Shown one piece after another: positions 6,077-32,670 of a stretch of DNA of 42,132 bases (position 1 is its first letter; each line of letters starts with the position of its first letter). Both the position numbers and the translations under genes were made by a program. The notes under the pieces are model-generated. The model saw only the letters and a program-made list of their open reading frames with translations. It had not been told where the DNA came from and did not search any database. This DNA is from a virus. The stretch lies in the IMG/VR virus record IMGVR_UViG_3300042868_001958, positions 1-42,132 of that record. One strand, given 5' to 3'.

Positions 6077-7561
6077 ATGGCTAGAAAAAGAACTGAAACT
6101 GTAGAAAAAGCGATTGCACCAGAAGATCAACCAGAACGTTTTCGTATTGGTGAAATTGGCTACTCAGGTCTTTCGATCTTTGACGGTGTAACTAATGAAG
6201 AAATTAAGCGAGAGCTAAACTTCCCCTATAACATTAAGACTTACCGAGAAATGAGTTACCACACAAGTGTCAACGCTTGTCTGCAACTCTATGAGAATCT
6301 TATTTCAAAGGTAACTTGGAGAATTGTACCTCCTAAGAATGCAACGGAAGAAGAAAAGAAACAAGCTGAGTTCGTAGAGGAATGTCTACATGACATGGAC
6401 GTTCCTTTCCGACAAGTAATCAAAGATGCATTGTCTTCTAATATTTACGGATTTGCTGTACTTGAAAAGGTATACCGCAGACGAAATACTAACAGTGGTA
6501 GCATGTATTCAGACAACAAGATTGCTCTGAAGAAGATTGCACTGAGAAGTCAAGAAACTATTGAGAAGTTTATCTTTGATGACAGCGGAAATGAAATTCT
6601 AGGTGTTAAGCAGAATCTGACTAACGTACAGAATGGAAAGCTCTACGGTAACCGCAGCAAACAAGAACTAGAAGTTGTTCTTCCTCGTTCTAAGGTAATG
6701 CTTGTAACCACAGGGAGAAACAGAAATGATCCATACGGTAAATCTCCGCTTCGTGACGTTTACCTTGCGTGGCGATACCTTACAGTCATTCAGGAAATTG
6801 AAGCGGCTGGTGTTGCGCGCGATTTGCAAGGTATGCCTGTCCTAAAGATTCCTGCGCAGTATATGTCTGATGATGCTAGTCCAGATCAGAAGGCTATCTA
6901 CGAGAACTTTAAGAACATCATTCGTAATATTCAAAACAACAGTCAATCTGGTGTTATTCTACCTTCTCAGACCGATCCTGAAACAAGACAGGCTCTGTTT
7001 GATCTTACTCTATTGAGTACGGAAGGTGGTAAGAAGAACTTTGACACTGGTAAGGTGAAAGAGTACTACCAGAACATGATTTACACAGGATTGTTTGCTG
7101 ACGTTCTGATTCTAGGTCAAGGTGGTGTAGGTTCCTTTGCTCTAGGTCAAATCAAGAACAGTCTAACAGGTTCTGCTGTAGAGTCAATGCTTGACAACAT
7201 CGTAGAGGTTTTCAACCGCGATGTGATCCGTCAATTGTATGAGCTAAATGGTTGGAATGTAGCCAGAAGTTCAACTCTGGACTACGAAGGTCTACATGCT
7301 GTTGATCTGGAAACTCTAAGCAAATACTGGCAACGTGTTACTTCCGTTGGTCTTGTTGAGAAAGATCGTCCTGTGCTTAACGCAGTTAGAACTGCTGCTG
7401 GCCTTGATCCTATTGCGGAAGATGTAGAACCGAGAGAGGAATATCTATCTGATGCAACTTCTCGTTCTGGCGACGGAATGGAAAAGGGATCAGGTAACGG
7501 TACTTCTGACAAAGTAGCCGGTGAAGATAATTCATCTGATAATCTAGATAACAAAGCATAG
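6077..7561 (+). CDS. Portal protein, 494 aa
   Basis: It follows terL by 11 bases with ribosome site AAGGAG (6064-6069) and has the size and order of a portal. The middle (KVTWRIVPPKNATEEEKKQA, then FVEECLHDMDVPFRQVIKDA, then SSNIYGFAVLEKVYRRR) is like DUF935-type portals, in which two chain segments flank an alpha-helical wing. The portal ring is the packaging channel and docks TerL and connectors. The C-terminal 50 residues are polar and low in complexity (Gly, Ser, Asp, Asn). Confidence 0.85.
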   Translation: MARKRTETVEKAIAPEDQPERFRIGEIGYSGLSIFDGVTNEEIKRELNFPYNIKTYREMSYHTSVNACLQLYENLISKVTWRIVPPKNATEEEKKQAEFVEECLHDMDVPFRQVIKDALSSNIYGFAVLEKVYRRRNTNSGSMYSDNKIALKKIALRSQETIEKFIFDDSGNEILGVKQNLTNVQNGKLYGNRSKQELEVVLPRSKVMLVTTGRNRNDPYGKSPLRDVYLAWRYLTVIQEIEAAGVARDLQGMPVLKIPAQYMSDDASPDQKAIYENFKNIIRNIQNNSQSGVILPSQTDPETRQALFDLTLLSTEGGKKNFDTGKVKEYYQNMIYTGLFADVLILGQGGVGSFALGQIKNSLTGSAVESMLDNIVEVFNRDVIRQLYELNGWNVARSSTLDYEGLHAVDLETLSKYWQRVTSVGLVEKDRPVLNAVRTAAGLDPIAEDVEPREEYLSDATSRSGDGMEKGSGNGTSDKVAGEDNSSDNLDNKA

Positions 7562-7568
7562 GTGAATC

Positions 7569-7883
7569 ATGAAAACTCAATGGCACGCGCAAGTAACGTC
7601 ATTGACTCTTAGACTATATAGAAGCCCCGATAGCTACGAAAACAAAGATTCGTACATCGGGGTTATTCAAGTTGAGCTATTGGGGGATAACACTGCATAT
7701 TTACATGCAGCGTTGAAATCTGACGGTGAAAGTATAACCTTTGAGGAATGGTGCAAAGTAGCTAAGTTGTTGCACGATGATTATGGTGTTCTGTACGGAA
7801 GACTTGAACGAAACGGAAGAGAGATTGTCCTTGATGCCAAGCGTTTAATCAGAAAGTTGGAACATGAAAAATCATCTGCTTGA
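7569..7883 (+). CDS. Hypothetical protein, 104 aa
   Basis: A soluble alpha/beta protein beginning MKTQWHAQVTSLTLRLYR, ending in a basic helix (DAKRLIRKLEHEKSSA). No family recognised. It starts 7 bases after the portal stop and overlaps the next gene by 20 bp, so it belongs to the same transcription unit. The sequence YIGVIQVELLGDNTAYLHAA suggests a beta-rich core. Confidence 0.75.
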   Translation: MKTQWHAQVTSLTLRLYRSPDSYENKDSYIGVIQVELLGDNTAYLHAALKSDGESITFEEWCKVAKLLHDDYGVLYGRLERNGREIVLDAKRLIRKLEHEKSSA

Positions 7884-8202
7884 AATTGAACAAGGTATTC
7901 CTTTCGAACAAGGATTTCTTGTAAGAAACGAAAATCTTAGTCCTAAAGACTTGTCAGGTTTTAACGCTAGGATGCACTTCAGGATCGCTTACTCTAGTCT
8001 AAAAGTAGAGTTAGAGTCTAGTACTTACAACGGTAGAATTTCAATCGTTGGGTCTACTGTTTACTTGAATCTCTCGGAAGAAGAGACTAGAAATTTGAAG
8101 TATGCTGAATACTACTACGATCTTGAATTGTTAGATGCATCGGATGAACCAGTGAGACTACTTGAAGGAAAAGTTCAGGTTAGTCCTGAAGTTACAAGAT
8201 AA
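7864..8202 (+). CDS. Small beta-rich virion-type protein, 112 aa, paralog A1
   Basis: It shares with the gene at 10252 the frame EIEQGIPF...FLVRNE, a central ARMHFR, then YDLELLD and a C-terminal EVTR, so the two are paralogs. Proteins with this YDLEL...G.V.VS.EVTR pattern are common beggar-known proteins beside phage tail or head adhesin genes, sometimes compared with BppU N-domains; the exact role is not known to me. The gene overlaps its upstream neighbour by 20 bp and is followed by an AAGGA site for the next gene. Confidence 0.75.
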   Translation: MKNHLLEIEQGIPFEQGFLVRNENLSPKDLSGFNARMHFRIAYSSLKVELESSTYNGRISIVGSTVYLNLSEEETRNLKYAEYYYDLELLDASDEPVRLLEGKVQVSPEVTR

Positions 8203-8210
8203 GGATTTAT

Positions 8211-9044
8211 ATGACTATTTCAACTCGTGATGCACTGATTGATGCGCTGGCTAATAATAGCAGTCGTCTTGTTATTGATAAAGCTTCCATTGCTTCACAA
8301 GCAGCTGGTACGTATGTATCTCTTTGGAGAGCCACAGGTCAACCAGGGCAAGGTGCTATTCCTGCTGCGGCAGCTGTCTGTAACAACAGCTTATTGGGTA
8401 CTTTCAACTTTACCCAGCAAACGAATCCAGCAACGTCATATCTAGCTTGGGCAAATGCTGTTTGTTCTAACTCAGCTGCGGTGATTGAGTTTCATGATAG
8501 ACTGATGCACATGGGTGGTTTAAATGGTACTCTAACTACTGCTCAAACAGTAAACGTTGATCTTAACGCAAACCTAGCAACCGACAATCTGACTAATAGA
8601 ATTGGTGATGCTAACTATTCTGATGTACAGTGGTGGTTAGAATGGTATACTGCAACAGGTGGTACTGCTGTTACAGCTACAGTAGCCGTTACATTTAACG
8701 ATGGTACAACAGCTAACTTGAGTGCTTCTCTTACCGCTACCCGTCCTGCTTCGTTCATGCTTCCATTAAATGGCTTGAATGCTGCCAATCCTGGTAAGTT
8801 TATTCGTGCTGTAAACACAGTACAGCTATCAGCAACCACTGGAACCGCAGGTAGTTTCGGAGTTACAGCAACTCGACCTAGAACTCTACTATCTTTGAAT
8901 GTTGCGAATAAGACAGAAACGGCAGATTGGGCTCAACTTGGTTTACCGAATGTACCTAACTCATCAGCACTATTCATGATCCAATTAACTTCTACTACTA
9001 GTACAGGAACTGTAAGGGGTGGTGGTAAACTAGCTCACGGATAA
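8211..9044 (+). CDS. Putative virion structural protein, 277 aa
   Basis: Rich in Ala, Thr, Asn and Ser, with beta-strand patterns such as TATVAVTFNDGTTANLSASL in the second half, typical of a virion surface protein. The first half (RDALIDALANNSSRLVIDKA) is helical. AAGGA lies 7 bases before ATG at 8211. It ends three bases before the repeat protein at 9048, which suggests the two are made and perhaps assembled together. No enzymatic motif is seen. Confidence 0.75.
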   Translation: MTISTRDALIDALANNSSRLVIDKASIASQAAGTYVSLWRATGQPGQGAIPAAAAVCNNSLLGTFNFTQQTNPATSYLAWANAVCSNSAAVIEFHDRLMHMGGLNGTLTTAQTVNVDLNANLATDNLTNRIGDANYSDVQWWLEWYTATGGTAVTATVAVTFNDGTTANLSASLTATRPASFMLPLNGLNAANPGKFIRAVNTVQLSATTGTAGSFGVTATRPRTLLSLNVANKTETADWAQLGLPNVPNSSALFMIQLTSTTSTGTVRGGGKLAHG

Positions 9045-9047
9045 AAT

Positions 9048-10265
9048 ATGGTAAAACATCCAGAAACAGATAGACCAATAAAGTTCTCAGGTGGTTCTGA
9101 TTTCTGGGATACCCCTGCTGGTTTAATTGCATCTGCTGATTATTTTGAGATCACACAGAGTTTAATCCAAGTATCAGCTTCATCTTCAGCAAACTGGAAT
9201 ACAAGAACTTCAGTTTCTAGAAACTTAGCATATAACTACAGTGCCAGATCAGAAGTTCAGTCTGCAATTTCTGCGAACTTTCAGATTAGAACGCAACAGA
9301 GTTCATCAGATTCCTTCTCATATTCTGCATATACCTCTGTTACAAACTCTGCGTCTGTAAATTACGCGATTAGACAGCAAGTACAAAACACCAGATCAAT
9401 TTCATATGGTGTGTCTGGTTTTGTATCAAATGTACAAAATGTAAGTTATTCAGTTCGAACTTCAGTATCTAACACAAGAAACCAGTCTTACACCGTAAGA
9501 ACAAGTTTGTCAAGTGCAGATGCATTTGCTTATTCTGTACTTTCAGTTCTTGCTGCAACAACATCCCCTTCTTACTTGATCCGACAGGTATCGACTGGAA
9601 CCAATACTCCGTCTTATGTCGTAAGAACTTCTGTGTATAGAGATAATTCTGGTTCTTATATAGTACGAGGATTCTCTGTAACATTACAGAGTGGAAGCTA
9701 CAACATTCGTCAGAGTGTTTCAAAAAGTGGAAGCAAGTCTTATTTTGTAAGACTATCTACGTTACAGACCAGTGGATTGTCCTATTTAGTTAGACAATCT
9801 AGTTCGTCAAATACTTCTGCTGGCTACAACATTAGAACTTTCACGGGTAAAGACCAGTCATTTGAATATGACATTCTGAACTCGCTGATTGCAGTTAATC
9901 AGTACTCAGCATCTTGGTTTGTTCGTAGTTCAGTATCTGATAGTAGAACTTCTCTCTATAACATAAGAGAGTTGAGTCAGAATTCTCTACCTAGTTCATA
10001 CTTGGTTAGAGTTTCTGCTACAAATCCTGGATTATATAGTTATTCTGTTCGCCAAAGTGTAGAAAAACAGATAAATCTGTGGTATAATGTTGAATTGTCT
10101 TCGGTAATTTACCGACAGGTTTCGTTTACTTATAACGTACTTGGAGAAATCGATGATACGGCAGTCACTATTACCTTGTCAACTAATCCTTCAAGCACCG
10201 TATATCTGTTACCTAAACAGTTAATCTCTGTTATCTATAAGAAAGACAATTATGGCCGCAACTAA
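9048..10265 (+). CDS. 14-residue tandem-repeat fibre-like protein A, 405 aa
   Basis: From residue 50 to 362 the protein is 23 tandem repeats of about SYxVRTSVSxxxxx. Conserved aromatic residues fall exactly 14 apart for 16 consecutive intervals (50 to 274), then one 16-residue unit (274 to 290), four more 14-residue intervals, and a last 16-residue unit to 362. Each unit has one alternating beta-strand (Tyr-x-Val/Ile-Arg-x-Ser) and a Ser/Thr/Asn turn, as in a beta-solenoid or stacked-strand fibre. The unique N-terminus (1-49) and C-terminal cap (363-405) would be the ends. The gene at 15197 has the same plan. The role is inferred as a virion surface fibre or spacer. Confidence 0.85.
   Translation: MVKHPETDRPIKFSGGSDFWDTPAGLIASADYFEITQSLIQVSASSSANWNTRTSVSRNLAYNYSARSEVQSAISANFQIRTQQSSSDSFSYSAYTSVTNSASVNYAIRQQVQNTRSISYGVSGFVSNVQNVSYSVRTSVSNTRNQSYTVRTSLSSADAFAYSVLSVLAATTSPSYLIRQVSTGTNTPSYVVRTSVYRDNSGSYIVRGFSVTLQSGSYNIRQSVSKSGSKSYFVRLSTLQTSGLSYLVRQSSSSNTSAGYNIRTFTGKDQSFEYDILNSLIAVNQYSASWFVRSSVSDSRTSLYNIRELSQNSLPSSYLVRVSATNPGLYSYSVRQSVEKQINLWYNVELSSVIYRQVSFTYNVLGEIDDTAVTITLSTNPSSTVYLLPKQLISVIYKKDNYGRN
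9195..10133 (+). repeat. Coding repeat block, 23 x about 42 bp
   Basis: DNA encoding the 14-residue repeats of protein A. Units are 42 bp (48 bp for the two long ones) and differ strongly at nucleotide level while keeping the Tyr, Val/Ile, Arg and Ser codons. The repeats are therefore old and under protein-level selection, not recent slippage products. Confidence 0.85.
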
Positions 10266-10605
10266 ATTCGATCTGGAAATCGAACAAGGGATTCCATATA
10301 ATAAAAAATTCCTCGTAAGAAATGAGGATAATTCCCTACCTATCATGACGGGTTGGACTGCCAGAATGCAGTTTAGACCGTATGTTAGTAGTAGTCAAGT
10401 AGCTGTTGACGCAAGTACTGCAAACGGTAAGCTGATTATTGACACTGGAACATCTTCTGTTGAAATCAACTTGTCTGAAGCAGACACAACAGCATTTACT
10501 TCTATGAAGTATGTGTACGATCTAGAACTACTAGATTCTCTATCAAAACCTATTCGACTGCTGCAGGGAAGTGTCTCTGTGAGTCAGGAAGTCACTCGTA
10601 ACTAA
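10252..10605 (+). CDS. Small beta-rich virion-type protein, 117 aa, paralog A2
   Basis: Paralog of the 7864 product: LEIEQGIPYNKKFLVRNED, ARMQFR, YVYDLELLDS, QEVTR align in order. It starts within the end of protein A (14-bp overlap), so it is translationally coupled to the repeat protein. In both copies the gene neighbours an adhesin-like protein, which suggests a linker, chaperone or collar function; this is inference. AAGGA follows for the next gene. Confidence 0.75.
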   Translation: MAATKFDLEIEQGIPYNKKFLVRNEDNSLPIMTGWTARMQFRPYVSSSQVAVDASTANGKLIIDTGTSSVEINLSEADTTAFTSMKYVYDLELLDSLSKPIRLLQGSVSVSQEVTRN

Positions 10606-10614
10606 GGAAATAAA

Positions 10615-11109
10615 ATGCCGATTCTATCTACCGATATCAAATACTACTTCTCTGGTGGTGCTGGTAATGCCAACCCTAATGCTTCTTTGGGTGGTGTAAT
10701 TTCTACAACAGAAACAACTGCAAGTCTTTTTGACGATGTTCCAAGTGCTGAAGCTACGGCTGGTACGGTTGAATATCGTTGTATCTATGTAAAGAATACC
10801 AACGGTACTCTAACTCTGATTGCTCCGAAGGTATTCATCCAGACGAATACTCCTTCTGCTACAACTACTGTAGCTATTGGTCTAGGTACTGCTGCAATCA
10901 ACGCTACAGAACAAACTGTTGCTAACGAAACAACTGCTCCCGCTGGTGTTACGTTCTCTGAACCTGCTAACTTTGCTGCTGGTCTTTCAATTGGTGATTT
11001 AGCTGTTGGTGCAACTAAGTCCATCTGGATTCGTCGTACTGTTAACGCTGGTACTGCTGCTGTAGCTGATTCATTCACTATTGCTGTTCAAGGCGATAGC
11101 AACCCTTAA
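10615..11109 (+). CDS. Putative virion structural protein, 164 aa
   Basis: Pattern KYYFSGGAGNANPNASLGG, then YRCIYVKN, then IWIRRTVNAGTAA resembles a family of phage structural proteins of unknown exact position (SGGA.N...SLGG...YRCIYV.N...W.RRTV). Predominantly beta-strand and Ala/Thr-rich. It follows paralog A2 by 9 bases and belongs to the same operon. No enzymatic motif. Confidence 0.75.
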   Translation: MPILSTDIKYYFSGGAGNANPNASLGGVISTTETTASLFDDVPSAEATAGTVEYRCIYVKNTNGTLTLIAPKVFIQTNTPSATTTVAIGLGTAAINATEQTVANETTAPAGVTFSEPANFAAGLSIGDLAVGATKSIWIRRTVNAGTAAVADSFTIAVQGDSNP

Positions 11110-11134
11110 TTGACAATTAGAATAAGGAGATACC

Positions 11135-11563
11135 ATGTCTCTATGGAATGAAATTCAAACAAAATGCTCTGCTGAAATGCTGGCTCGTAGAAACATGCAT
11201 GAAATTGCTGCGTTTCTAAACATTGGTCGTACAAAGACAGTACAGACGCTAATGGGTGAGCGTGGAATTCTAGCAAAGTATCCTACGGGACCAGTTGAGG
11301 CTGATGCTGTACTTACTAAGCTTGAAGTATTTTCACAAACTGCACATCCGATGGCTAGCTTAGTTAAGCGAGCAGTTCGTTTTCTAGGTACTACAGAAGG
11401 TATCGACCTTGGCGATCCTGCTACTCAACTTCTGTTGGATCAATTGGCTGCTGGTGGAGCAATTACGGTAAGTGAAGCTGCAAACCTAAAAGGTCTAGCT
11501 TCTGTTCCTGATACAGTAGATTGGTCACAAGTTCAAGCAGCTTTTGACGAACAGGGAGTTTAA
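11135..11563 (+). CDS. Conserved phage protein, 142 aa
   Basis: Mostly helical: an N-terminal helix-turn-like region (HEIAAFLNIGRTKTVQTLMG) and a C-terminal part with ITVSEAANLKGLASVPD, a pattern often seen in uncharacterised phage head-region proteins. I cannot assign a role. AAGGAGA (11124-11130) is a strong ribosome site, and the gene is followed after 2 bases by the next one. Confidence 0.75.
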   Translation: MSLWNEIQTKCSAEMLARRNMHEIAAFLNIGRTKTVQTLMGERGILAKYPTGPVEADAVLTKLEVFSQTAHPMASLVKRAVRFLGTTEGIDLGDPATQLLLDQLAAGGAITVSEAANLKGLASVPDTVDWSQVQAAFDEQGV

Positions 11564-11565
11564 TA

Positions 11566-12051
11566 ATGGCAATTCAAAGAAGTAATCCTGCTGCTGTTAA
11601 CTTGGGTACGGCTGTAAACAGCTTGGCTTCAAGCGCAACCGCAGCGGCACAATCAAATGAAGTGATTAGCTCTACTACAAACAATGTTACAGACATTACA
11701 GTAAACGTTGGTGTAGTTTGTGGTGCTCACACTCAATCCGCTAGTACTCTAGTTACTGTATTCGTATGGGGTACTAATGACGATAACAGTTATCCTGGTG
11801 CTACTGGTACGGTAGAAGTTGTTACTGGAACGGCTGGTGCAATTACACTAGGTTCCTTTGGTAACATCGCTCTAAAGTGGCTACAATCTGTATCTGCAGT
11901 TCCTAGCCAAACAAATAAACTAGAAGGTAGTGTTGTTGGTGCTCTAGGTTTCGTACCTCGCAAGTGGGGTATTGTTATCGTAAATCAGACTGGTGCTGCT
12001 CTAGCTGCTTCTGGTCATTACGCAGAGTACGTAGAAACATACTACAACTAA
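11566..12051 (+). CDS. Putative virion structural protein, 161 aa
   Basis: Beta-rich and Ala/Thr/Val-rich (SSTTNNVTDITVNVGVVCG, then LVTVFVWGTND), ending with a GALGFVPRKWGIVIVNQTGA pattern. It has the look of a small capsid- or tail-associated beta-sandwich. Family not recognised. It is tightly linked to the preceding gene (2-base gap). Confidence 0.72.
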   Translation: MAIQRSNPAAVNLGTAVNSLASSATAAAQSNEVISSTTNNVTDITVNVGVVCGAHTQSASTLVTVFVWGTNDDNSYPGATGTVEVVTGTAGAITLGSFGNIALKWLQSVSAVPSQTNKLEGSVVGALGFVPRKWGIVIVNQTGAALAASGHYAEYVETYYN

Positions 12052-12089
12052 TTGCGATAGGTAACCAAAGATAATTCAAGGAGAAATTT

Positions 12090-14354
12090 ATGGGTCAACT
12101 TTGGTTGCCAAATACAGTTTGGGATAAACAACCTGTCACAAAGGCAGGTATTACTGACGATAACTTATCAAACGAACTCGACTTTGCTTTCTATTGCACT
12201 TCTACTGGGGTGTTTGACGCAAAGAATGGAAATGATGTTGCGTTTGTAAACGATCAGACTGTTGTATCTACACCAGAAGGATTTGCTTTTGTTGGACAGT
12301 CTTCAGGTATAAAGCAAGCTTTTACGTTGAAGTCTAGAATGACCTCAAACAGAGCCTTCACCTTGATGTTTATCAGACGCTCTGGTGGATTCTACAGTGG
12401 TTTATCTGGTGCTGGCAAAATCTTCGAATTAACATGGGGTGGTTCTGGTCACAATATATATCTTCGTGGCCCCGACCTTGATAACTTTAGAAGATGGTAT
12501 ACTTCTGTATATGGTTCTTCTGTATTTCAAACCCCTACATTTGGACCAGTAGATCGAATTTTTGATAAGCAATCTACGGTTGTTATCTTCAGATACATTC
12601 CTGGTACAAGCATTACACTGATTGATAAGTACGGAAGAACTACTGTTCCTATCACTGAAGGTAGTCAAGGCTCCGTACAAGCAACTCCTATTGACGCTCA
12701 GTTCTTCACAGATTTTAACTCTCACATGATCCCTCTTGGTGCAGGATGGACAAGAGCGTTGAATGACAATGAATGTGAAAGATTGATGGAGAATCCTTGG
12801 AGCTTGTTTAGCAAGTCTTCAACCGTAACGATGATTCCTGAGTATGTGGCTTGCACTAAGCAGCCGCAGGGTGTTGCTGAGATTGATCGAATGGGCCTCG
12901 GTAAAGGTATGCAGATGCTGCTCATGCAGCGTGGAGGTAGATTAGTAGACATTGTGAATCCATCTGTCGCGTGGAACCCTATAAACGGTGCTACTTCTGG
13001 TATATCTCCTTCAGGTGCTGTCTCAAGATTCAATGGTTCAACAAGTGGAGTTTTTCAAGCCACAGGCTACGCCAGCATGGGCGACGTCAATGGCACGTTT
13101 TTTGTTTGGATGCCGCGCTTTGGTGCGTATGACAGCGCTGGCTCGATTTTTCTTTCAACGCCTAGCGCCGACCTGTACCTTCAGATTACGTCTGATGGTC
13201 GAGTTTTTGTTACCCAAGCGCAGGCCCCAGGCGCTCCAAGTATTGCCAATTCGCGCAATAGGAGCGTTGTTTTTAGTAGTAGGGCGGCCAAAACCGCCGT
13301 GATGTTTGATGGCGTGGCGCGCGTCTCCAACGTGGACAACCGGGTGATGTGGCCCGGCACGAAGACGCTGAATTTTGGCGGGTATACAGGCGGAGCAGAA
13401 TGGGATACGGACGCTGATATTGTCATCGCCGGGTACACGAGCGAGTCATGGACTGAGGCTCAAGCTAAAGCGTTTCATGATAACCCCTGGCAACTTTTCC
13501 GTCAAAAGGTTAACTTGCCTCTTGATGCTACCATCAAAGAAAACAGAAAGCCTGTAATCAGGGAATCTAATCTGTTGGGTACGTCTAAGAGGAAGTTGAG
13601 TGATGTGAATGTGACAAACACAGTGTCTGGTGCGGTTAAGAAGGTCTTGAATCGACAACCAGCCGGTGCATCTTCAGTTGAAATAGCTTGGTCAAATCCA
13701 ATTACAAGATCGTTATTTGACTTATTCACCCCGCCTTACGTTGGTCACGCTGATGTAAAAGGAATGTTGGGTAAAATCTCTCAGCCAACAAGTGAACGAT
13801 CTACAAGTCTCACAAACAATGTGGGTGCAAAGCCAACACCAATGGGACTAGCATACACGGCCTTTAACCTCAATTGTGGCGTTGGTTTCGTAAATACGGG
13901 AGCTTCTGTTTTCACGAGCTATTGCCGAATGAAATTAAATTCATTTACAAGCGGTGATTGTAACTTCTTGGGTGATGCTTTTAATCTCGGTGTCGGATTA
14001 TATGCCGGTACTGGTGCAACTTTCTACGTTGAACTTTATACAGGAACTTTCATCAAGACTCCGATTGCTCTTACTGCAGAACTAGGAAAGTATTACGACA
14101 TTGTTACAGTAACTTCTGCAACTAATGTAAAACTGTATATTGATGGCGTTCTAATGTTTGATCAAGCTCCTAGCTACTGGAACGGTCAAGGTCGGCATGG
14201 AATCTTAGTTACAGGTCTAGTGACAATTGGTGCTATAGATTTTGTTACTGTGGCAGGATGGACTAGAGCTTTGAGTTTTGCAGAAGTTCAGTCTATCAGC
14301 AGAAACCCCTGGCAACTCTTCAAGAACCAATCCCAACTAATCCTTCCGAAGTGA
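12090..14354 (+). CDS. Three-module LamG-like lectin protein, 754 aa
   Basis: Built of three concanavalin/LamG-type jelly-roll modules, each ending in an A.WTRAL....E...I..NPWQLF motif: about residues 1-240 (WTRALNDNECERLMENPWSL), 257-468 (SWTEAQAKAFHDNPWQLF) and 530-745 (AWTRALSFAEVQSISRNPWQ). Such modules usually bind carbohydrate, so the protein is a candidate surface adhesin or receptor-binding protein. Module 2 opens with KQPQGVAEIDR, as does the product of the next gene. Module 2 DNA (about 13055-13480) is visibly richer in GC (55-62% in sampled lines against about 40% nearby), pointing to acquisition by recombination. GGAG lies before ATG at 12090. Confidence 0.8.
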   Translation: MGQLWLPNTVWDKQPVTKAGITDDNLSNELDFAFYCTSTGVFDAKNGNDVAFVNDQTVVSTPEGFAFVGQSSGIKQAFTLKSRMTSNRAFTLMFIRRSGGFYSGLSGAGKIFELTWGGSGHNIYLRGPDLDNFRRWYTSVYGSSVFQTPTFGPVDRIFDKQSTVVIFRYIPGTSITLIDKYGRTTVPITEGSQGSVQATPIDAQFFTDFNSHMIPLGAGWTRALNDNECERLMENPWSLFSKSSTVTMIPEYVACTKQPQGVAEIDRMGLGKGMQMLLMQRGGRLVDIVNPSVAWNPINGATSGISPSGAVSRFNGSTSGVFQATGYASMGDVNGTFFVWMPRFGAYDSAGSIFLSTPSADLYLQITSDGRVFVTQAQAPGAPSIANSRNRSVVFSSRAAKTAVMFDGVARVSNVDNRVMWPGTKTLNFGGYTGGAEWDTDADIVIAGYTSESWTEAQAKAFHDNPWQLFRQKVNLPLDATIKENRKPVIRESNLLGTSKRKLSDVNVTNTVSGAVKKVLNRQPAGASSVEIAWSNPITRSLFDLFTPPYVGHADVKGMLGKISQPTSERSTSLTNNVGAKPTPMGLAYTAFNLNCGVGFVNTGASVFTSYCRMKLNSFTSGDCNFLGDAFNLGVGLYAGTGATFYVELYTGTFIKTPIALTAELGKYYDIVTVTSATNVKLYIDGVLMFDQAPSYWNGQGRHGILVTGLVTIGAIDFVTVAGWTRALSFAEVQSISRNPWQLFKNQSQLILPK

Positions 14355-14361
14355 GGTAGAT

Positions 14362-15189
14362 ATGCATAAAAATGAAGTATTTACCTCGCAGCCGCAGGGG
14401 AACTTTGAGATTGATCGTGGAAGTCCAATTACTAGGGGGTTTTTCGGAGGATTTATGGGTCCGAGGAGCCCAGACCTTCGGTTCTCAAGACAGTCTAGTG
14501 GGAATCTCCCAATGTCCATTGGTGTTGCTGGTATAGAGTGGAAAAGTCAATCATCGACGGAGATTGCTACCTATACAGGAGGTTATTCTCCACAGACTAC
14601 AGGTTTAACAGTTCTTGTTGTTGCACGGCGCGATGGGGTGCAGCCAGATTCTGGCTTTGCATTGGCTGTCACGCTGACGCAGGTTAGCGGGGCGCAAGAT
14701 CCATTCCAGCTCTTCATCAAGGATTCTGGAGAGCGAATTCGGGTCAACACGACAACGACTGACAACACACTGAGTGTGGAGACGGCTACAGATTGGCCTG
14801 TTGGTGTCATGCAAGTCGGCGTCTACTCATGGTCGAGTGGATCGGTCCCAGAGGCATACCGCAACGGCATCAAGCAGGTGCTATCTAATAACTACTATGG
14901 GTCCAACATCCCGACAGGGGTACTGAAGCCTGCCCAGTCTTTGCGCGTCAACTTGCCTAGTCTGCGACTCAACGGGGCCGTCGCTGCGGTGCTAATCTGG
15001 GACAGAAAGCTGTCAGACGCCGAAGTCGCCAGCATCAGCGCCAACCCCTGGCAAATCTTCCGCCGATTCTCTCGTCCACTCTTCACCCCAACAGGTGAAT
15101 CAGGAGTTCTAATCCCTGACCTAACCTCTCCAGGTGTTATCGACATAACCGCCAATACAGCTAAACCAGAACTAAACGTACAATACTGA
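14362..15189 (+). CDS. Single-module LamG-like lectin protein, 275 aa
   Basis: One LamG-like module, starting with TSQPQGNFEIDR and ending IWDRKLSDAEVASISANPWQ, the same module signature as in the preceding gene. A Pro-rich tail (LFTPTGESGVLIPDL) follows. The body of the gene (about 14620-15075) is GC-rich (about 62% in one sampled line) while both ends match the composition of the neighbours, as in module 2 of the previous gene. It is probably a carbohydrate-binding surface protein; the ligand is unknown. Confidence 0.75.
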   Translation: MHKNEVFTSQPQGNFEIDRGSPITRGFFGGFMGPRSPDLRFSRQSSGNLPMSIGVAGIEWKSQSSTEIATYTGGYSPQTTGLTVLVVARRDGVQPDSGFALAVTLTQVSGAQDPFQLFIKDSGERIRVNTTTTDNTLSVETATDWPVGVMQVGVYSWSSGSVPEAYRNGIKQVLSNNYYGSNIPTGVLKPAQSLRVNLPSLRLNGAVAAVLIWDRKLSDAEVASISANPWQIFRRFSRPLFTPTGESGVLIPDLTSPGVIDITANTAKPELNVQY

Positions 15190-15196
15190 GGTTAAG

Positions 15197-16516
15197 ATGC
15201 TAGGAACTATCTATTCAATTATTGCACCGGCTGCAGGCTGGTACACTCCTAGTGCTAACAACGTTATCGCTGGTTTAGCTCCAAATGGTTCCGCTGCGAC
15301 TTGGGCAGGTAATACCCCTGATCCGAATACCAGCGGACAATTTGATTGGCCTACTGCTGCAAGTGGATTGACCGCAAGTACAGACTACAAGATTGCTTTT
15401 GTTTGGTCTGACGGAACAAGCTATTCTTCAGTCGTTGAAGCTAGTTTCAGTACTCTTGCCGGTGGAGGATTAACTCAGGTTACATCACTGCTAAATGCTT
15501 TGTTTGGAATCCAAGGTCTAGTATCAAGATCAGTGTCTGGTTCTTACAACATTCTAGAACTTATTGTTTCAAATAGATCAGTTAGTTTTACTATCAGAAC
15601 TTCGGCAACTAATCAAACTAGCGCTTCATACTTGGTACGCACTCAGATTAACAAATCGATTGCTGCTGCGTATGGTGTTGCTGGGTTAGTGGCAGGCTCT
15701 AATTCTGCTTCTTATAATGTAAGAACTTCTGCTCAACAAAGTAGAAACTCGACCTACAATGTAAGATCAGAATTGACAAGAGCTTCTGCTGGTAACTATT
15801 TCGTAAGAACTTCAGTTACTGAATCAGATGGTTCTTCTTACGTAGTTCGGTCTGCTACTCTGAATACTTCTGCAAGCGGATATTCTATCCGAGCAGAGGT
15901 ACAAAGAACTGCTTCACCGAATTATTCTGTACGAACATCTGTTCAGGAAACGGATTCTGCGAGCTATTTTGTAAGAACTTCAGTAAGTGAATCAGATGTT
16001 CTATCTTATTTGATCCGAGGTTCAGCTTCAAGAAATCAATCTGTAAGCTACAACATTAGAACAAGCACTCTTGCTAGTACCGATGTAGTTTATAACATCT
16101 TGAATGCAACGGGAGTAATTACTTCCTACAGTGTCTCATACAAGGTTAGAACTCAAGTAAACACAACGAATGGTATCTCTTACAGTATTCTGCAGAGTGT
16201 AAATAGTTCTGCAGGTGTTAACTATGTGATTCAAGCACAGGTTGGCAATAACCAACCTCAGACTTACACAGTAAGACAAGCCAGTAGTTCTACACTGACG
16301 GAAGAATTCAAGGTTCGCTTTGGATTAACTTCTTCACGTTCTTGTACATACTTGATTCAAGGGTTGACGCAGGTTACTTCTGATATCGACTTCTTGTACT
16401 TCGTTCTTGCTGAGATAATGCCGGATGCAGAAGTTGTGTACATCGGACCTAATACAGACTCAACTATCTACCTGAATACTGAAGACATTACTACTGTATT
16501 CATCAAACCGTATTGA
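15197..16516 (+). CDS. 14-residue tandem-repeat fibre-like protein B, 439 aa
   Basis: Residues 1-90 look like a fibronectin-III-type beta-sandwich (ending SYSSVVEASFST). From residue 117 to 401 there are 21 repeats of the same SYxVRTSVS type as in protein A: aromatic residues every 14 up to 299, a 16-residue unit (299 to 315), five 14-residue intervals, and a 16-residue last unit (385 to 401). The C-terminal cap, IGPNTDSTIYLNTEDITTVF, matches the cap of protein A (LSTNPSSTVYLLPKQLISVI). A and B are thus paralogs with different N-terminal domains, probably two versions of one fibre or stalk. Confidence 0.82.
   Translation: MLGTIYSIIAPAAGWYTPSANNVIAGLAPNGSAATWAGNTPDPNTSGQFDWPTAASGLTASTDYKIAFVWSDGTSYSSVVEASFSTLAGGGLTQVTSLLNALFGIQGLVSRSVSGSYNILELIVSNRSVSFTIRTSATNQTSASYLVRTQINKSIAAAYGVAGLVAGSNSASYNVRTSAQQSRNSTYNVRSELTRASAGNYFVRTSVTESDGSSYVVRSATLNTSASGYSIRAEVQRTASPNYSVRTSVQETDSASYFVRTSVSESDVLSYLIRGSASRNQSVSYNIRTSTLASTDVVYNILNATGVITSYSVSYKVRTQVNTTNGISYSILQSVNSSAGVNYVIQAQVGNNQPQTYTVRQASSSTLTEEFKVRFGLTSSRSCTYLIQGLTQVTSDIDFLYFVLAEIMPDAEVVYIGPNTDSTIYLNTEDITTVFIKPY
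15545..16397 (+). repeat. Coding repeat block, 21 x about 42 bp
   Basis: DNA of the 14-residue repeats of protein B. It has the same period and the same placing of a single 48-bp unit six repeats before the end as in the 9195-10133 block. Nucleotide identity between units is low, and protein-level spacing is strictly kept. Confidence 0.82.
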
Positions 16517-16583: not shown

Positions 16584-16970
16584 ATGACAAAACGTACAAA
16601 GATTGCGAAAGCTGTGAATGAAGAACTAAAGCAGGCCACTTACATTGTATTGGTTCCTGACGAAGTTGATGCTCACGGAGATACTATTTCTGAAGATGAA
16701 GTGCGTAAAGCATGTCATAACTTCAATAAATTCTCGATGCAAGCTAACTTGTTTCACCTAGTAGAATCCGAATCATTTGAATTCGTAGAATCATATGTCT
16801 GTCCAACAGACTTTATTCTAGGTGACAAGGAAGTTAAGAAAGGTACTTGGCTAGCTACAGTACAGGCTCTAGATGATAATCTATGGGAACTGATGAAGTC
16901 AGGTGAAATTAACGGACTATCAATCGGCGCTTTGGCTGCTGTTGAAACACTGGAAGGTGAAGAAGAATGA
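16584..16970 (+). CDS. XkdF-like prohead protease, 128 aa
   Basis: Resembles the PBSX XkdF serine protease family: YIVLVPDEVDAHGDTISEDE, then LFHLVESESFEFVESYV with the likely catalytic His, and GLSIGA with the likely catalytic Ser. It would cleave scaffold and head proteins during maturation. It ends with an ATGA overlap (16967-16970) with the next gene, and the two together match proteins that are sometimes one chain. Strong AAAAGGAG ribosome site. Confidence 0.75.
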   Translation: MTKRTKIAKAVNEELKQATYIVLVPDEVDAHGDTISEDEVRKACHNFNKFSMQANLFHLVESESFEFVESYVCPTDFILGDKEVKKGTWLATVQALDDNLWELMKSGEINGLSIGALAAVETLEGEEE

Positions 16971-17932
16971 CAACTAAAGCAAAACGAAAGCTATCTGACA
17001 TTAGTTTCCAACACGAAGGTGCTCACGTAGCTCTAGTAAGCAAGCAACAAGGTGGGCCAGCAAATGGTCATGACTACGCTCTTGTAATGAAAGCTACAGG
17101 ATTCTCTCAAGAATTCGTAACCAAGATGCAACAAGTCCGAGTTACTATGGAACTTCCTGAGTTCTTGCGTAAATTCTTCAACGTTTATTACGAAGATGCT
17201 GAAGTACTTGCGCGCATGATGGGTTACGTTGAAGTAGAAGATGAAGTTGAAGATACTGACAGTTACGAAGATTGGTATGAAAATCGTATCCAAGAACGTC
17301 TGGATCAGTTCGAAGTATTGAAGTCACTTAATGAATCAAAGGATATCGCTGCTGATATTCTTGCACTAGGTGAAGATAAATATCTGAAAGTACTCAAGTC
17401 ACAATCTAAGCTTGAGAAAGTACTTGCTAAGATCGAAAAGAATTCTGCCAAAGCTGCAAAAGCTAAAGCTGAAGAAGGCTCAACCGAAGCCGTAGCGCAA
17501 GCTAAACAATCGGATGAAACACAAACGAAGGTTGAACCTTCTGAGAATGTTAACAAAGGAAAAAATTACATGGATGAACTAGAAGAAGTCAAGAAGGCAA
17601 GCGAAGCTACTAAGGCTGAACTCGCTAAAGCTCTTGAGCAACTCAATGTATTTAAGGCTGAGAAGCAAGAAATGATTCGTAAGGCTCGTTTCGATAAGCT
17701 ACTAGCCGCTGTTAAGGACGAAGCTAAAGCAGAATCTCTATTCAAGGCTCTTTCTCTTCTAGAAAGTGATGCTGAATTTGATGCTTCAGTCGAAGTGCTA
17801 GCAGGAATGCAGGCTATCGTAGAGAAGTCAGAAATGTTCAAGGAAACTGGTGCTACTGTTGACGTTGAAGATACTCCCGTTGCGGAATCTCAAGTATCAA
17901 AAGTACTCAAGGCTAAATACGCACAGAAATAA
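16967..17932 (+). CDS. Head scaffold-type protein, 321 aa
   Basis: N-terminal part begins MTTKAKRKLSDISFQHEGAH followed by VALVSKQQGGPANG, a pattern common directly after or fused to XkdF-type proteases. The second half is strongly charged, Ala/Lys/Glu-rich and predicted coiled coil (SKLEKVLAKIEKNSAKAAKA and DELEEVKKASEATKAEL), as in capsid scaffolds. A Met at 17570 with its own AAAGGA site probably yields a separate short scaffold. It overlaps the protease gene by 4 bp and precedes the decoration protein, the usual order. Confidence 0.72.
   Translation: MTTKAKRKLSDISFQHEGAHVALVSKQQGGPANGHDYALVMKATGFSQEFVTKMQQVRVTMELPEFLRKFFNVYYEDAEVLARMMGYVEVEDEVEDTDSYEDWYENRIQERLDQFEVLKSLNESKDIAADILALGEDKYLKVLKSQSKLEKVLAKIEKNSAKAAKAKAEEGSTEAVAQAKQSDETQTKVEPSENVNKGKNYMDELEEVKKASEATKAELAKALEQLNVFKAEKQEMIRKARFDKLLAAVKDEAKAESLFKALSLLESDAEFDASVEVLAGMQAIVEKSEMFKETGATVDVEDTPVAESQVSKVLKAKYAQK
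17570..17932 (+). CDS. Nested internal start: candidate short scaffold, 120 aa
   Basis: In-frame ATG at 17570 (MDELEEVKKASEATKAELAK) lies 9 bases after AAAGGA at 17555-17560, and this is exactly where the coiled-coil C-terminal half begins. The arrangement is like lambda C/Nu3, where a scaffold is made from an internal start in the protease gene. It would give a pure scaffold in excess over the full-length protein. Supported by sequence context only. Confidence 0.5.
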   Translation: MDELEEVKKASEATKAELAKALEQLNVFKAEKQEMIRKARFDKLLAAVKDEAKAESLFKALSLLESDAEFDASVEVLAGMQAIVEKSEMFKETGATVDVEDTPVAESQVSKVLKAKYAQK

Positions 17933-18345: not shown

Positions 18346-19056
18346 TTGACTGACGTTTGTTATCTATACTGGATACATCGCCCTAGTGATACGAATCTAC
18401 TAGAAGAGGGTTATATTGGAATTTCAATTAATCCAGACTCAAGGTGGAAACATCATTTGTATACTAAAGAAAGCAAGAAGAAAAATCATAGACTCTATAA
18501 CGCGATGCGAAAGTATGATGATTATAGAATGACTATTCTTCTTATTGGTTCATCTGAATATTGTCTTGACTTAGAGAAATCTTTGCGACCAAAGGTAAAT
18601 ATCGGATTGAATCACTCAGTTGGTGGCAAGCATGATTCGAATACAACTAGGGAACATTTCACCGATAGCATCAAAATGAAAATTAGTCTTGGACTAAAGA
18701 AAAAGTATGCTGAAGATGAAACGTATAGAGAAAAGTTCAAGACTTTGAACAGAGGTAGAGTTGCATCGGAAGTAACCAAGGGTAAACAGCGTCTTGCTAA
18801 ATTAAATAAAGGACTTGCTTGGGAGAATTCTAGAGCAAATCTAACTTTATGGGAGAAAGCAGATGTTTACTTCAACAGTTTTGAACAGATGTTAACAATG
18901 TGCGCAAATTCTAGGCACAAAATATCAATTAAAGTGTTTTGTGAGTTAACGGGACTAACCCCTGGAAATTCACAATCACTAATCAAAATGTTTAGGTCTG
19001 GATGGAATCCAAGTCTAGATAACAATTGGAAAACAAAATTTAATAAGGAAAATTAA
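18346..19056 (+). CDS. GIY-YIG homing endonuclease-like protein, 236 aa
   Basis: TTG start at 18346, 2 bases after the decoration gene. N-terminal GIY-YIG domain: YLYWIHRPSD then EGYIGIS (residues 6-27), DSRWKHHLY with the catalytic Arg and DLEKSLRP with the catalytic Glu. The middle is Lys-rich (KMKISLGLKKKYAEDE), followed by a C-terminal DNA-binding-like segment with ISIKVFCELTGLTPGNSQSL. It lies between the decoration and capsid genes without disturbing either, typical of a free-standing mobile endonuclease. It shares signatures with the 3925 product. Confidence 0.8.
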   Translation: MTDVCYLYWIHRPSDTNLLEEGYIGISINPDSRWKHHLYTKESKKKNHRLYNAMRKYDDYRMTILLIGSSEYCLDLEKSLRPKVNIGLNHSVGGKHDSNTTREHFTDSIKMKISLGLKKKYAEDETYREKFKTLNRGRVASEVTKGKQRLAKLNKGLAWENSRANLTLWEKADVYFNSFEQMLTMCANSRHKISIKVFCELTGLTPGNSQSLIKMFRSGWNPSLDNNWKTKFNKEN

Positions 19057-24140: not shown

Positions 24141-27100
24141 ATGGAATTAAGCACCCTCAGTTTTAAGGTAGAAACTACCGAAGTAAAGCAAGCAGCGGAT
24201 GATCTAAACAACCTAGCTACTGCGATGCAAAAAGTAAACTCTTCTAGCACAGGTAAAGGGCTAGGAGACTTAGGGAAAGGTGCGTCTGCAGCGGCTACTG
24301 GATTAGAGGAAGCTGCACAAGGTGCTGAAAGACTGAATAAACCTCTCGCTGGTGATCTACCGAAGAATCTAGATCGAGTATCCAAGATGATTCAACACCA
24401 ATCAGATGTGTTGAAGTTCCTGCGTAACGATCAAAAGTATATTGAAGACGGATTCACAAAGAGTCAAGCTGGAATGATGGCTACTGCTACTGCTGCAGGA
24501 GCTACTTCTGATCAACTGCAAGCACTTGCTAATGTATTTAAAGATATCAGTAAGGTAACAGGTAAGAATCCTTTTGACCAAAGCGCATCTGGATTAGGTC
24601 AACTGAAACAGAAAGCTATGGAAATGTCAAATGCTGCAGAGTATTTGGCTAAGGGTTTCAACCTAACAAGCGAACAAGTTAGACTGTTGACTCGTGATCA
24701 GATTCGTTTGTCAGACTCAATGAAGCAACAAGGGTCTTCCCAGGAAGCTATTGCTGCTGCTTTGGCAAAACTGGAAAGAGAATATCTACAGGTAGCAGGT
24801 AGCGTAAATAACTACGTTGCTGCAGCCAAGGAACTAGAAAAGCAAAACAAGCTACAGAACAAACAACTTGCTGAAAACATCACTATGATGGATACTGCAG
24901 TTGCTCAGTTCCGTAAGCTGGAACAAGAGAAGGCCGATGCTGCTGCTCGTGCTTCACAAAAGATTATCGACGCAAACCAAGCCGCTATCGACTCAGCTGA
25001 AAGATTGGCTAAGATTTCCAAGCTAGTTGCCGGTGGTATGTCTCAAGGTGAAGCTACAAAGCGTACCGACATGGCTGCATCTGGTGTTGAACTGGCTAAT
25101 ATCGAGAAACTGATTGCTGCTGAAAAGCAACTAGCTGCTGCAAAGCAGAATGTTACAGGTTCAAGTGTAAAGCAGTCAGGTGCGATGAGTGAAGCTGCCA
25201 AGGCTGCTGAATGGTTAGACCGTGAAATTCGAAGAGCAGATAATGCACTTGTAGGTTTTAATGATGAATTGAAAGTTTCATCATCAAACCGTCTTTTTAG
25301 ATTTAGTGAGCAACTTCGTAAAGCTGGTATTTCTGGTGATGAAGCAACTGCTATGATGGAAAAGTATCGCAGTACAATCATTGCAGGTCAGAAAAAGACT
25401 AACGAAGAAATGGATAAAGACCTTCGTAACCTAGCTAGAGCAGTATCTGTTCAAATGGGTGACGTTGCTGTTTCTCTTGCTGGTGGTATGAATCCTTTCA
25501 TGATCATGATCCAGCAGGGTGACCAGTTGAGAGCTGCATTCCAACTCGCAAAGAAAGATGCGGTAGATACTGGCGCGGCAATGAGAGTTGCTGCAGCAAT
25601 GATTGCGGAGTCATTTATCGATACTGGTAAAAACATCGGTATTTTCGTTGGTGGTGCATTTAAGTCTCTGTATGACGCAGTTGGTAATTTGGGTGCTAGA
25701 TTCTCAGGTCCGTTTGGCGGTGATGCGATTCGCAGATGGAGAACCGAACTAGAACTTGCAGAAGCGATCAGTGGTAAAACAACAGGTGCTCTGACAGTAA
25801 TGAATGGTATCATTGCTGTGATGACAACAACAGTGACTGCCATTACTCTAGCTTTCGGTGCTTTCAGTTTAGCATACGGTGTTGCTTTTTTCAAGGCATC
25901 TAAAGAAGCTGATGAACTAAGTAAAGCACTTATTCTGACTGGTGGATCACTCGGTCTTACTAAAAATGCAGCGATTGATTTTGCGGCTAGTTTTGAACAA
26001 GTTGGAATGAACGTAAGTTCAGCGGTTCAGTACATAACTGAATTTGCTAAAGCGGGTAATTTTACTAAGCAAGAACTGCAACTTCTAGTTCCAGTCGCAA
26101 AGCAAATGTCTGAACAACTTGGCATTTCCGCCGAAGATGCTGTCAAATCTTTTGCCAAGTTCAAAAAGGAACCTGTAGAGGCTCTAATTGAATTGGCAAA
26201 AGCTACGGGTATGGTATCACAAGAAACCCTTCAGATGGCTATTCAAATGGAGGATTCCGGACGCAAGACAGAAGCTCAGACAATTGCAATGAATGAAGCC
26301 GCAAGAGTTAATCAGGTAGCTGTTGATCGAATGAAACAAGATTATAGTACGCTTGGTACAATTCTTGTTGAAACAGGAAAGGCTTTCTCTGATTTATGGT
26401 CTGGAATCAAGAGTTTGATTTACAATCCAAACGCTACTCAGAAACTTGAAAAGGATATTGCAGCTTTACAAGAAAGAATCGCAGGGCGTGAAAATAGTTT
26501 CGGTCCTGTTAACAAGCAAGCTTTAGCTGCCGACAAAGAAAAGCTTCAAATTCTTCGTGATCAGTTGAATTATAAGATTCTTCAAGAAGAAGCTGATAAA
26601 GACATGATGGCTACACAAGCTGCTCAAGCTCGTGCAACTGAAGCTACCAGAAGATTGAATAAATCTATTCAAGATGATCTTGATAAGTTGACAATGAAGG
26701 AAATGACTCGTACAGAGTTCGTCCAGAAATTCATTGATAAAAAACTAGAAGAAGCGAAGATTGTTGGTAATCAAACAGCGCTGAATCAAGTTCAAATGAA
26801 AGACCTTGAAAAGTTAGCTGAGTTAGAGTGGAAGAAAACTAAGACGGCTAAAGACGGTGCCAAAGAGCAACTTAAGATCGATAATGCTTACAACGCTGCA
26901 ATTCAGAGGTTTATTACTCTAAGAGAAGAAGCTGCAGGTAAGACAAGAGAACTTACTAAAGCTGAAATTGCTTACAATGAAATCAAAGCGTCTAGTAACT
27001 GGGATAAGTTCTCAAGCAAAAGACAGGAAGAACTTGCTCTGGAAAGAGACAAAGCTGTTAACGCCGAGAAACTACAGGCTTTCCAAAAAGAAGAACTTAG

Positions 27101-32014: not shown

Positions 32015-32670
32015 GTGCCCTACCGACCCCACCAAGTAGGTCGAATCCTTCTGCGTTTGCTAACGAAGCAGACGCTTTCCTTAGCGCATTACCTACATTT
32101 GCAACCGAAGCTAATGCTTTGGCGACAGATGTAAACAACAGTCAAATCGCAGCGGCAGATAGCGAAGATGCTGCACTGACATATGCAAACAATGCTCAAG
32201 CAAGTGCAAATGCTGCACAAGCTAGTGCTGTATCTGCAAGCAATGCTTCAAGCGCTCCTAAGTGGGTCTCTGGAACTAACTACACGGAAGGTCAGTGTAC
32301 TTGGAGTCCTACTAGCTTCCTAACGTATAGGGCAAAGTCTAATATCACTGGTTCCGTAGTTGATCCTGCGCTGACAACAGCCTGGGAACTATTGAACGGT
32401 GAAATTGCTAAGGAAACTACAAGTTCTTTGGCATTTACTGCTCTGCATAACTGGCACTATATTCTAACAGGTGCTGGCGACGTAAACGTAACACTGCCAA
32501 CTCCTTCAAACTATATGAAGGTTAGAATTACGGTAGCGAATAACAGAGATACCAATAATGTCCTTCGTGGCGCAGCAACTATCATGGGTCTTGCTGAGAA
32601 CTGCAGACTTGATAATAAGAATGCTACCGCTACGTTTGAGTATCTAAATAACACATGGAGAATTACATAA
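32005..32670 (+). CDS. Tail fibre-like protein with CBM-like module, 221 aa
   Basis: An Ala-rich helical N-terminus (NAQASANAAQASAVSASNAS, residues about 65-85) of the type seen in trimeric fibre stalks, then WVSGTNYTEGQCTWSPTS and FLTYRAK...W, resembling a small CBM5/12-type carbohydrate-binding module like that in the 30255 product, and a C-terminal beta domain. The pair of modules in neighbouring genes suggests that they work together at the tail tip. Ribosome site AAGGAG overlaps the end of the upstream nuclease gene. Confidence 0.65.
   Translation: MPISALPTPPSRSNPSAFANEADAFLSALPTFATEANALATDVNNSQIAAADSEDAALTYANNAQASANAAQASAVSASNASSAPKWVSGTNYTEGQCTWSPTSFLTYRAKSNITGSVVDPALTTAWELLNGEIAKETTSSLAFTALHNWHYILTGAGDVNVTLPTPSNYMKVRITVANNRDTNNVLRGAATIMGLAENCRLDNKNATATFEYLNNTWRIT

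Follow-up and report, generated by a model that had tools for sequence, protein, structure and literature searches.

Between the portal and protease genes of a freshwater bacterial virus, two genes lying near each other encode proteins built from short tandem repeats, which raises the question of what these proteins are and where in the particle they belong. The window analyzed here is the whole 42,132-nucleotide stretch of the viral record; repeat proteins A and B are listed in Table 1 together with their neighbors. The coordinates and reading frames that a preliminary description had given for both genes were checked and are correct, and the portal and protease matches confirm the proposed location between these two genes.

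Table 1. Features of the portal-protease slot (window coordinates)
Feature	Coordinates	Strand	Details
Portal protein, left edge of slot	6077..7561	+	PDB 9c39_A (Sf14 portal), E 9e-95
Module 1 opener, small, phrog_1084/LtfC/BppU_N-like	7864..8202	+	52% identity to 10252-10605 product
Middle gene of module 1, 277-aa product	8211..9044	+	
Repeat protein A (P0001)	9048..10265	+	405 aa; closes module 1
A, 14-residue repeat array	9186..10130	+	residues 47-361
A, 16-residue unit YDILNSLIAVNQYSAS	9867..9914	+	residues 274-289; lacks Arg at position 4
A, terminal unit, 16 residues, YNVELSSVIYRQVSFT	10083..10130	+	
A, C-terminal cap	10131..10262	+	common to A, B and L021
Module 2 opener, phrog_1084/LtfC/BppU_N-like	10252..10605	+	PDB 26dk_M, E 2e-4
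phrog_13135 protein	10615..11109	+	precedes repeat gene, order kept in several relatives
Small cassette protein	11135..11563	+	homologues in L027, L018
Small cassette protein	11566..12051	+	upstream of LamG genes
LamG (concanavalin-like) protein	12090..14354	+	754 aa; PF13385, E 1.8e-6
LamG-like protein	14362..15189	+	275 aa; PF13385, E 1.1e-5
Repeat protein B (P0002)	15197..16516	+	439 aa; closes module 2, adjoins protease gene
B, N-terminal Fn3-like domain	15197..15472	+	residues 1-92
B, 14-residue repeat array	15494..16396	+	residues 100-400
B, 16-residue unit YNILNATGVITSYSVS	16091..16138	+	residues 299-314
B, terminal unit, 16 residues, YLIQGLTQVTSDIDFL	16349..16396	+	
B, C-terminal cap	16397..16513	+	
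XkdF-type protease, right edge of slot	16584..16970	+	PF14550, E 2.8e-27

At the level of the repeat, a count of positions reproduces the 23 and 21 tandem units with 14-residue aromatic spacing first described for A and B, respectively. The aromatics of A extend from residue 50 to 362 and are 14 residues apart except at 274 to 290 and 346 to 362, where the step is 16. Those of B begin at Y117, or at the degenerate F103 if this is counted as a 22nd unit, and reach residue 401 with the same spacing, again except for two steps of 16 (299 to 315 and 385 to 401), the last of which has a neighboring Phe at +14 and the Tyr of YxVL at +16. The single 16-residue interruption and the 16-residue last unit reported for both proteins are therefore confirmed, as is their common type of cap (FxYxVLxEI..DxAV....N..ST.YL in each). 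The word "exact" applied to the repeats holds for their spacing, but not for their sequence, which varies. By sequence comparison, the two arrays are relatives of each other (30% identity over 374 aa, E 3e-36 with low-complexity masking off; 37% identity in the best segment). The longest unbroken run of 14-spaced aromatics is 17 in A and 15 in B, against maxima of 8 and 7 in 20,000 shuffles of each protein, and a low-threshold search detected no tandem repeat in the DNA. Since the shuffles never come close and the DNA lacks a detectable tandem repeat, the register is maintained by selection at the protein level.

The unit follows the consensus [YFW]-x-[VI]-R-x-x-[VA]-x-x-[DST]-x-x-x-x, with Arg conserved at position 4 and Asp/Ser/Thr at position 10, and A and B show the pattern by which the family is defined here, aromatic-x-[VIL] at 14-residue spacing over at least six units. 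Arg-4 is present family-wide in 151 of the 186 14-mers and in none of the 28 longer units, a contrast matched by 0 of 100,000 within-protein permutations; the absence of Arg-4 from longer units (15-17 residues) is a rule that holds across the family. Gly does not exceed 18%, nor Pro about 4%, at any position of the 186 units, and Pro or Gly adjoins the aromatic in the Aeromonas variants.

Searches with both proteins as queries found no relatives of the repeat in Pfam, PHROGs or PDB sequences, nor did a profile of the repeat family retrieve any relative from the PDB. As the preliminary description had anticipated in stating that no fold or function was described, no family emerged from the Pfam, PHROGs, PDB and BFVD searches, and the 14-residue repeat is, as far as sequence tells, undescribed in family libraries. 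In BFVD, the one match that is strong by E-value (A0A6J5NPS6) has a TM of 0.25, so a shared fold cannot be claimed. Fn3 domains make up most of the best 50 matches in the PDB fold search, none of them at E <= 0.001. For the Fn3-like N-terminus previously proposed for B, a low-confidence model gives many Fn3 matches of high Foldseek probability but E>0.05, and Pfam contains no match. This domain is homologous to one in the repeat protein of L007, and the layout of L101 is similar.

Regarding secondary structure, for which alone the AlphaFold2 models were taken as evidence, the two monomer models contradict each other and are both of low confidence. In that of B, each repeat contributes a single strand some 10 residues long (mean pLDDT 51), whereas that of an Ala-rich relative, L290, is one broken helix (pLDDT 64, pTM 0.26) interrupted at the 16-residue unit. 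The composition of A and B favors beta over helix propensity. The regular beta structure proposed earlier thus agrees with the strands of B and the beta-leaning composition, but not with the helical L290 model, at low confidence throughout. Because the unit would consist of a 10-residue strand and a 4-residue turn, a solenoid with one repeat per coil would fit poorly; better candidates would be an oligomeric stalk of intertwined chains or a meander of antiparallel strands.

With respect to their genomic context, A and B are the last genes of two modules that are parallel in gene order and that both begin with an LtfC/BppU_N-like gene. The PDB match of the module 2 opener is a phage structural protein, and the 277-aa protein of module 1 has no family match in Pfam or PHROGs. 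Against the curated PF13385 cut-off of 27.6 bits, the 754-aa protein scores 28.6 and qualifies as a LamG partner, while the 275-aa protein falls slightly below with 26.0. In relatives, too, the cassette runs from the opener through phrog_13135, small genes, LamG and repeat protein to the protease.

As the consensus tblastn against phages and plasmids gave no match, the repeat was sought in other genomes with codon-spaced DNA patterns. Many of the matches were false and were sorted out by reading frame and composition; rejected in this way were, among others, L009 and L269, wrong-frame readings of other repeats, and the bacterial contigs L059 and L081, whose repeats are at the nucleotide level. 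Aligning overlapping windows of the repeat gave nothing usable, identical stretches having slid onto one another. The pattern scans placed the repeat in at least a dozen unrelated viruses, including siphoviruses, podovirus-like contigs and Aeromonas phages, of which BUCT552 and PhAER-6 are available as isolates. It is fused to LamG (L008, L027, L035, L045, L052, L018), to an Fn3-like domain (L101), to a beta-helix-like domain (L320), to the head-tail adaptor phrog_442 (L288 and L289, E about 1e-18) and to tail-tip proteins, and in Aeromonas phages it is joined C-terminally to a tail protein (L005, L006). LamG and repeats share one gene in L027 and occupy separate genes in the window. Unit number differs, 16 versus 21, between tail proteins that are 93% identical.

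Several relatives have no genes, or next to none, in the slot itself: Rheinheimera Barba9A has no slot genes, and in Pseudomonas Baskent_P3_3B and KIL2 a methyltransferase-like gene alone separates the portal from the structural gene that follows. In Shigella phage Sf14, by contrast, the slot holds neck whiskers, the order portal gp29, whisker gp30 and whisker gp31 being supported by cryo-EM and MS (PMC11821841) and also present in Sf17. Like A and B, the whisker genes (gp30/gp31, PDB 9C39) are accessory genes between a homologous portal gene and the protease gene and are missing from several related phages. Unlike A and B, the whiskers are small proteins (in Sf17, of 166 and 110 aa) devoid of 14-residue repeats. 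BLASTP and phmmer found no homology between gp30/gp31 and the slot proteins of the window, and a relationship of gp30 to the LtfC-like openers, plausible by eye, was not supported (hhalign probability 0.1%). Because whisker homology is undetectable and Sf14 is a myovirus while the lineage of A and B is siphoviral, assignment to the neck rests on gene position. Two other repeats of related phages, different from the 14-mer in length and sequence, have comparable surroundings: one of about 23 residues in P26059A (6296-7480), in the same slot, upstream of the protease gene and separated from it by no more than two tiny annotated ORFs, and one of about 20 residues in L007, with LamG genes upstream and terminase and portal genes beside it.

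Taken together, we give a probability of about 0.6 to A and B being elongated accessory virion arms, probably of beta structure, which present glycan-binding domains and have the neck as favored site. Since the repeat recurs in unrelated viruses fused to sticky or virion-structural domains, it would serve tailed-phage virions as a modular stalk or spacer of a kind not described before. A unit would most likely comprise a single amphipathic beta strand, some 10 residues long, and a short turn, and arrays of 3-30 units would build an arm that is the longer the more units it contains. A and B would then be two related arms from an accessory slot, probably attached to the virion by the opener of each module, while the module 2 LamG proteins and the Fn3-like domain of B would probably bind glycans and provide a weak first contact with the host or the surroundings. 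Exposure of the repeat proteins on the virion surface, as initially suggested, is probable in view of the adaptor and tail-tip fusions, the LamG partners and the slot comparison. More tentatively, the repeat may represent a fibrous fold of a new kind, probably a beta stalk that is oligomeric and that unrelated tailed phages use as an interchangeable extension arm; its units of 15-17 residues without Arg-4 would then act as joints or switch the register, and the number of units would tune length.

Other locations have to be weighed against the neck. It is rather unlikely that the arms are tail side fibers or baseplate-attached adhesins whose genes are simply located in the head module. The LtfC and BppU_N families are linked to tail fiber and baseplate, the module 2 opener also matches phrog_3304 ("L-shaped tail fiber protein assembly") and the Aeromonas repeats prolong a tail protein, a fusion indicating that one repeat family need not imply one virion location. 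Yet the virus has separate tail-tip genes past the tape measure, including 32005-32670 with a weak tail-fiber match, and both the adaptor fusions of L288/L289 and the comparison with Sf14 point away from the tail. Still less likely are capsid decoration fibers that, in the manner of T4 Hoc, emerge from hexamers or vertices and make the particle sticky. T4 Hoc and Hoc-like proteins are, as proposed here for A and B, elongated arms of beta domains presumed to be adhesive, made in T4 Hoc of Ig domains of about 100 residues instead of 14-residue units; the neighboring genes are head genes, Hoc-like proteins use extracellular beta domains too, and whiskers and a Hoc-like protein coexist in Sf14 (PMC11821841). 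Nevertheless, the Hoc-like gp20 of Sf14 is encoded outside the slot, no capsid-binding domain is recognized in A or B, and the adaptor fusion favors the neck.

A helical repeat, with 14 residues as two heptads of a coiled-coil-like rod, is improbable: the L290 helix, broken at its 16-residue unit, would suit it, but its pTM is low, the B model and the propensities of both proteins are beta, Arg-4 and Ser/Asp would fill heptad a/d positions, and Pro or Gly flanks the Aeromonas aromatics. Least probable are internal head or core proteins, ejected with the DNA or cleaved. Gene position would allow them, given that the portal-protease interval of T4-like KVP40 contains gene 67, for the prohead core, and gene 68. 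The LamG and Fn3-like partners, the LtfC-like openers and the tail-protein fusion argue against such a role, for which 16967-17932, following the protease and with a charged C-terminal half, seems a better scaffold candidate.

Among known fibers, the shafts of adenovirus and reovirus are triple beta-spiral stalks of repeats of about 15 residues with hydrophobic alternation, and A and B resemble them in being long proteins made of short repeats. Neither protein matches a shaft family in Pfam at E<=0.1, and their units differ from the triple beta-spiral in lacking a conserved Gly/Pro turn and in having Arg-4 and, at position 10, Asp, Ser or Thr instead. The openers 7864-8202 and 10252-10605 lie in or near the superfamily of T5 LtfC and lactococcal phage BppU_N, a likeness that concerns the partners of the repeat proteins and not the repeat. 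Phage appendages determine what particles stick to and which hosts they meet, and most of their building blocks lack annotation. The 14-residue repeat is recognizable from sequence across several phage types and marks proteins that are probably exposed on the virion, and the relation between Arg-4 and unit length constitutes a concrete structural prediction. If the fold is new, a tunable and highly regular stalk would join the known viral fibers.

The preliminary description placed two proteins built from 14-residue units, A (405 aa) and B (439 aa), between the portal and protease genes, and both gene positions and this location, within a slot of about 9 kb, were confirmed. A contains 23 units and B 21, or 22 if a degenerate first unit is counted. 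The step from one aromatic residue (unit position 1) to the next is 14 residues in both, the only exceptions in each protein being a single internal unit and the last unit, both 16 residues long, as had been claimed. The longest unbroken runs of 14-spaced aromatics, 17 for A and 15 for B, compare with shuffled maxima of 8 and 7, respectively (20,000 shuffles each). Tandem Repeats Finder detected no DNA tandem repeats in either gene, even at low threshold, which argues for old units that have since diverged and for a register held by selection at the protein level.

Plain tblastn is nearly blind to this repeat, yielding only the Aeromonas phages PhAER-6 and BUCT552, and the family was instead gathered with DNA patterns spaced by 14 codons (see table). 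In the two Aeromonas phages, a tail protein carries a C-terminal array of the type PYNLRSTVQAELLA; since these proteins are 93% identical ahead of arrays of 16 and 21 units, unit number changes quickly. More divergent 14-residue arrays (L016, L028, L033, L034 and L282) may be relatives, and L282 gives one weak-to-moderate match to B. L009 and about 10 similar loci come from large viral contigs, each contig with several ORFs that read as Cys/Trp/Gly/Ser-rich 14-spaced repeats; probably these represent another repeat protein read on the wrong strand or in the wrong frame.

Coordinates and architecture of the repeat proteins and neighbouring features
Locus	Positions	Feature
Window	9048-10265	A
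Window	15197-16516	B
Window	7864-8202	LtfC/BppU_N-like opener of module 1, followed by a 277-aa protein and A
Window	10252-10605	LtfC/BppU_N-like opener of module 2, followed by phrog_13135, two small and two LamG proteins, and B
Window	24141-30209	Tape measure protein, 2022 aa
Window	18346-19056; 31151-32014	GIY-YIG-type and HNH-type homing endonucleases, inserted among the structural genes
L005, L006 (Aeromonas phages)	8344-12606; 8161-12591	Tail proteins with C-terminal array
L008, L018, L027, L035, L045, L052		LamG-type domain, NPWQLF-like end in most, then repeats (14-codon pattern)
L021		Repeats and cap (shared C-terminal segment) as in B (14-codon pattern)
L101 (Burkholderiales metagenome-assembled genome)		Fn3-like domain and repeats (14-codon pattern)
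L290, L291, L041		Repeats alone (14-codon pattern)
L320		Beta-helix-like region and repeats (14-codon pattern)
L288, L289		Family members; a few units, then head-tail adaptor phrog_442 (E about 1e-18)
L033	12643-14727	Divergent 14-residue repeat, DIRWDIFNEIQDTL, in more than 20 units
L007	4795-7305	Fn3-like domain homologous to that of B, third type of repeat, about 20 residues long (GTSAVTFAPSATLTGRGAL), EDRVYTVAAEDR-like units at end
L287 (P26059A)	6296-7480	Tandem repeat of another kind, about 23 residues long, KGTLxxTExxDSFSAxAKVxV, in the slot, ahead of the protease

The longer units noticed in A and B have counterparts across the family. In 12 proteins, Arg occupies position 4 in 151 of 186 14-residue units but in 0 of 28 units of 15-17 residues, a split reproduced in 0 of 100,000 trials when Arg was shuffled among units inside each protein. 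Because the longer units lack this Arg, follow a separate consensus (roughly [YF]-x-[IV]-[LIQD]-x-[AS]-x-x-V) and line up across the family close to the C-terminal end, they form a distinct structural element, a joint or turn being the obvious guess.

In agreement with the earlier statement that the repeat had no described fold or function, no relatives of A or B were found in Pfam, PHROGs or PDB sequences, the family profile retrieved no relative from the PDB, and a text search of the open-access literature for 14-residue or 14-amino-acid repeats in phages returned no relevant paper. For the proposed regular beta structure, the predictions disagree. The AlphaFold2 model of B (12-row alignment) gives each unit one strand, about 10 residues long, and a short turn, with a mean pLDDT of 51, and composition favours beta for A and B; however, an Ala-rich relative, ambiguous in composition, was modelled as a helix with a break in the 16-residue unit (pLDDT 64, pTM 0.26; other four models 43-50). 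On these predictions, a regular beta structure is the likelier fold. Most of the best PDB fold matches of the B model are Fn3 domains, about 80 residues long; we read them as corresponding to its N-terminus.

By gene content, the window is a siphovirus-like contig: it encodes TerL, portal, XkdF protease, a lambda-D-like decoration protein, major capsid, tail terminator and a Phage_tube_2-family tail tube, and no sheath gene was recognised in it. Its kin are Limnohabitans phage DC31 and Curvibacter phage P26059A, described in the literature as a siphovirus (PMC5964084), and genes related to its head genes occur in Felix-O1-like and Pakpunavirus myoviruses. At the customary 1.5 angstrom per residue, the tape measure protein would correspond to a tail of roughly 300 nm; tails of cultured relatives measure 153 and 203 nm (PMC5964084, PMC12195039).

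The slot holds no gene in Barba9A, one methyltransferase-like gene ahead of the next structural gene in Baskent_P3_3B and KIL2, and two genes in Sf17, as in published Sf14, where cryo-EM and mass spectrometry identified both products as neck whiskers. Whiskers of this kind are absent from a Pakpunavirus (PMC12846349, 2025). In the nearest repeat-bearing relatives, L311 and L312, the repeat protein is last before the protease or nearly so (a small ORF intervenes in L311), and upstream lie an LtfC-like opener, phrog_13135 and then LamG or Gly-rich proteins. In P26059A, the position ahead of the protease is taken by a protein with a different, 23-residue repeat. Such variation among relatives marks the slot as a site for accessory genes that can be exchanged and that most likely encode appendages.

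In the window, the module itself seems to have been duplicated, as suggested by the identity between its two openers (52%) and between A and B (about 30%), and by the single opener of L311, which is closer to the module 2 opener (60%) than to that of module 1 (45%). Of seven members of the opener family, two matched LtfC (best E 2e-5) and one matched BppU_N (E 0.003); the module 2 opener gave no such match when queried alone. The openers also match a phage protein of 197 aa, labelled 'structural protein', in PDB 26dk, and the opener domain is present in KPP25 ORF087 (197 aa, annotated structural).

The repeat, its family, the fusions, the slot and the duplication are the established steps from which the arrays of A and B can most likely be read as an elongated, length-adjustable arm outside the virion, probably beta-structured and presumably located at the neck. 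This arm would be fixed to the virion through the LtfC/BppU_N-like protein and would carry LamG or Fn3-like domains, whose putative glycan contacts would keep the particle near host surfaces. As far as the tools used reach, the 14-residue repeat is real, widespread and undescribed, and the kind of object is recognisable as a modular phage appendage.
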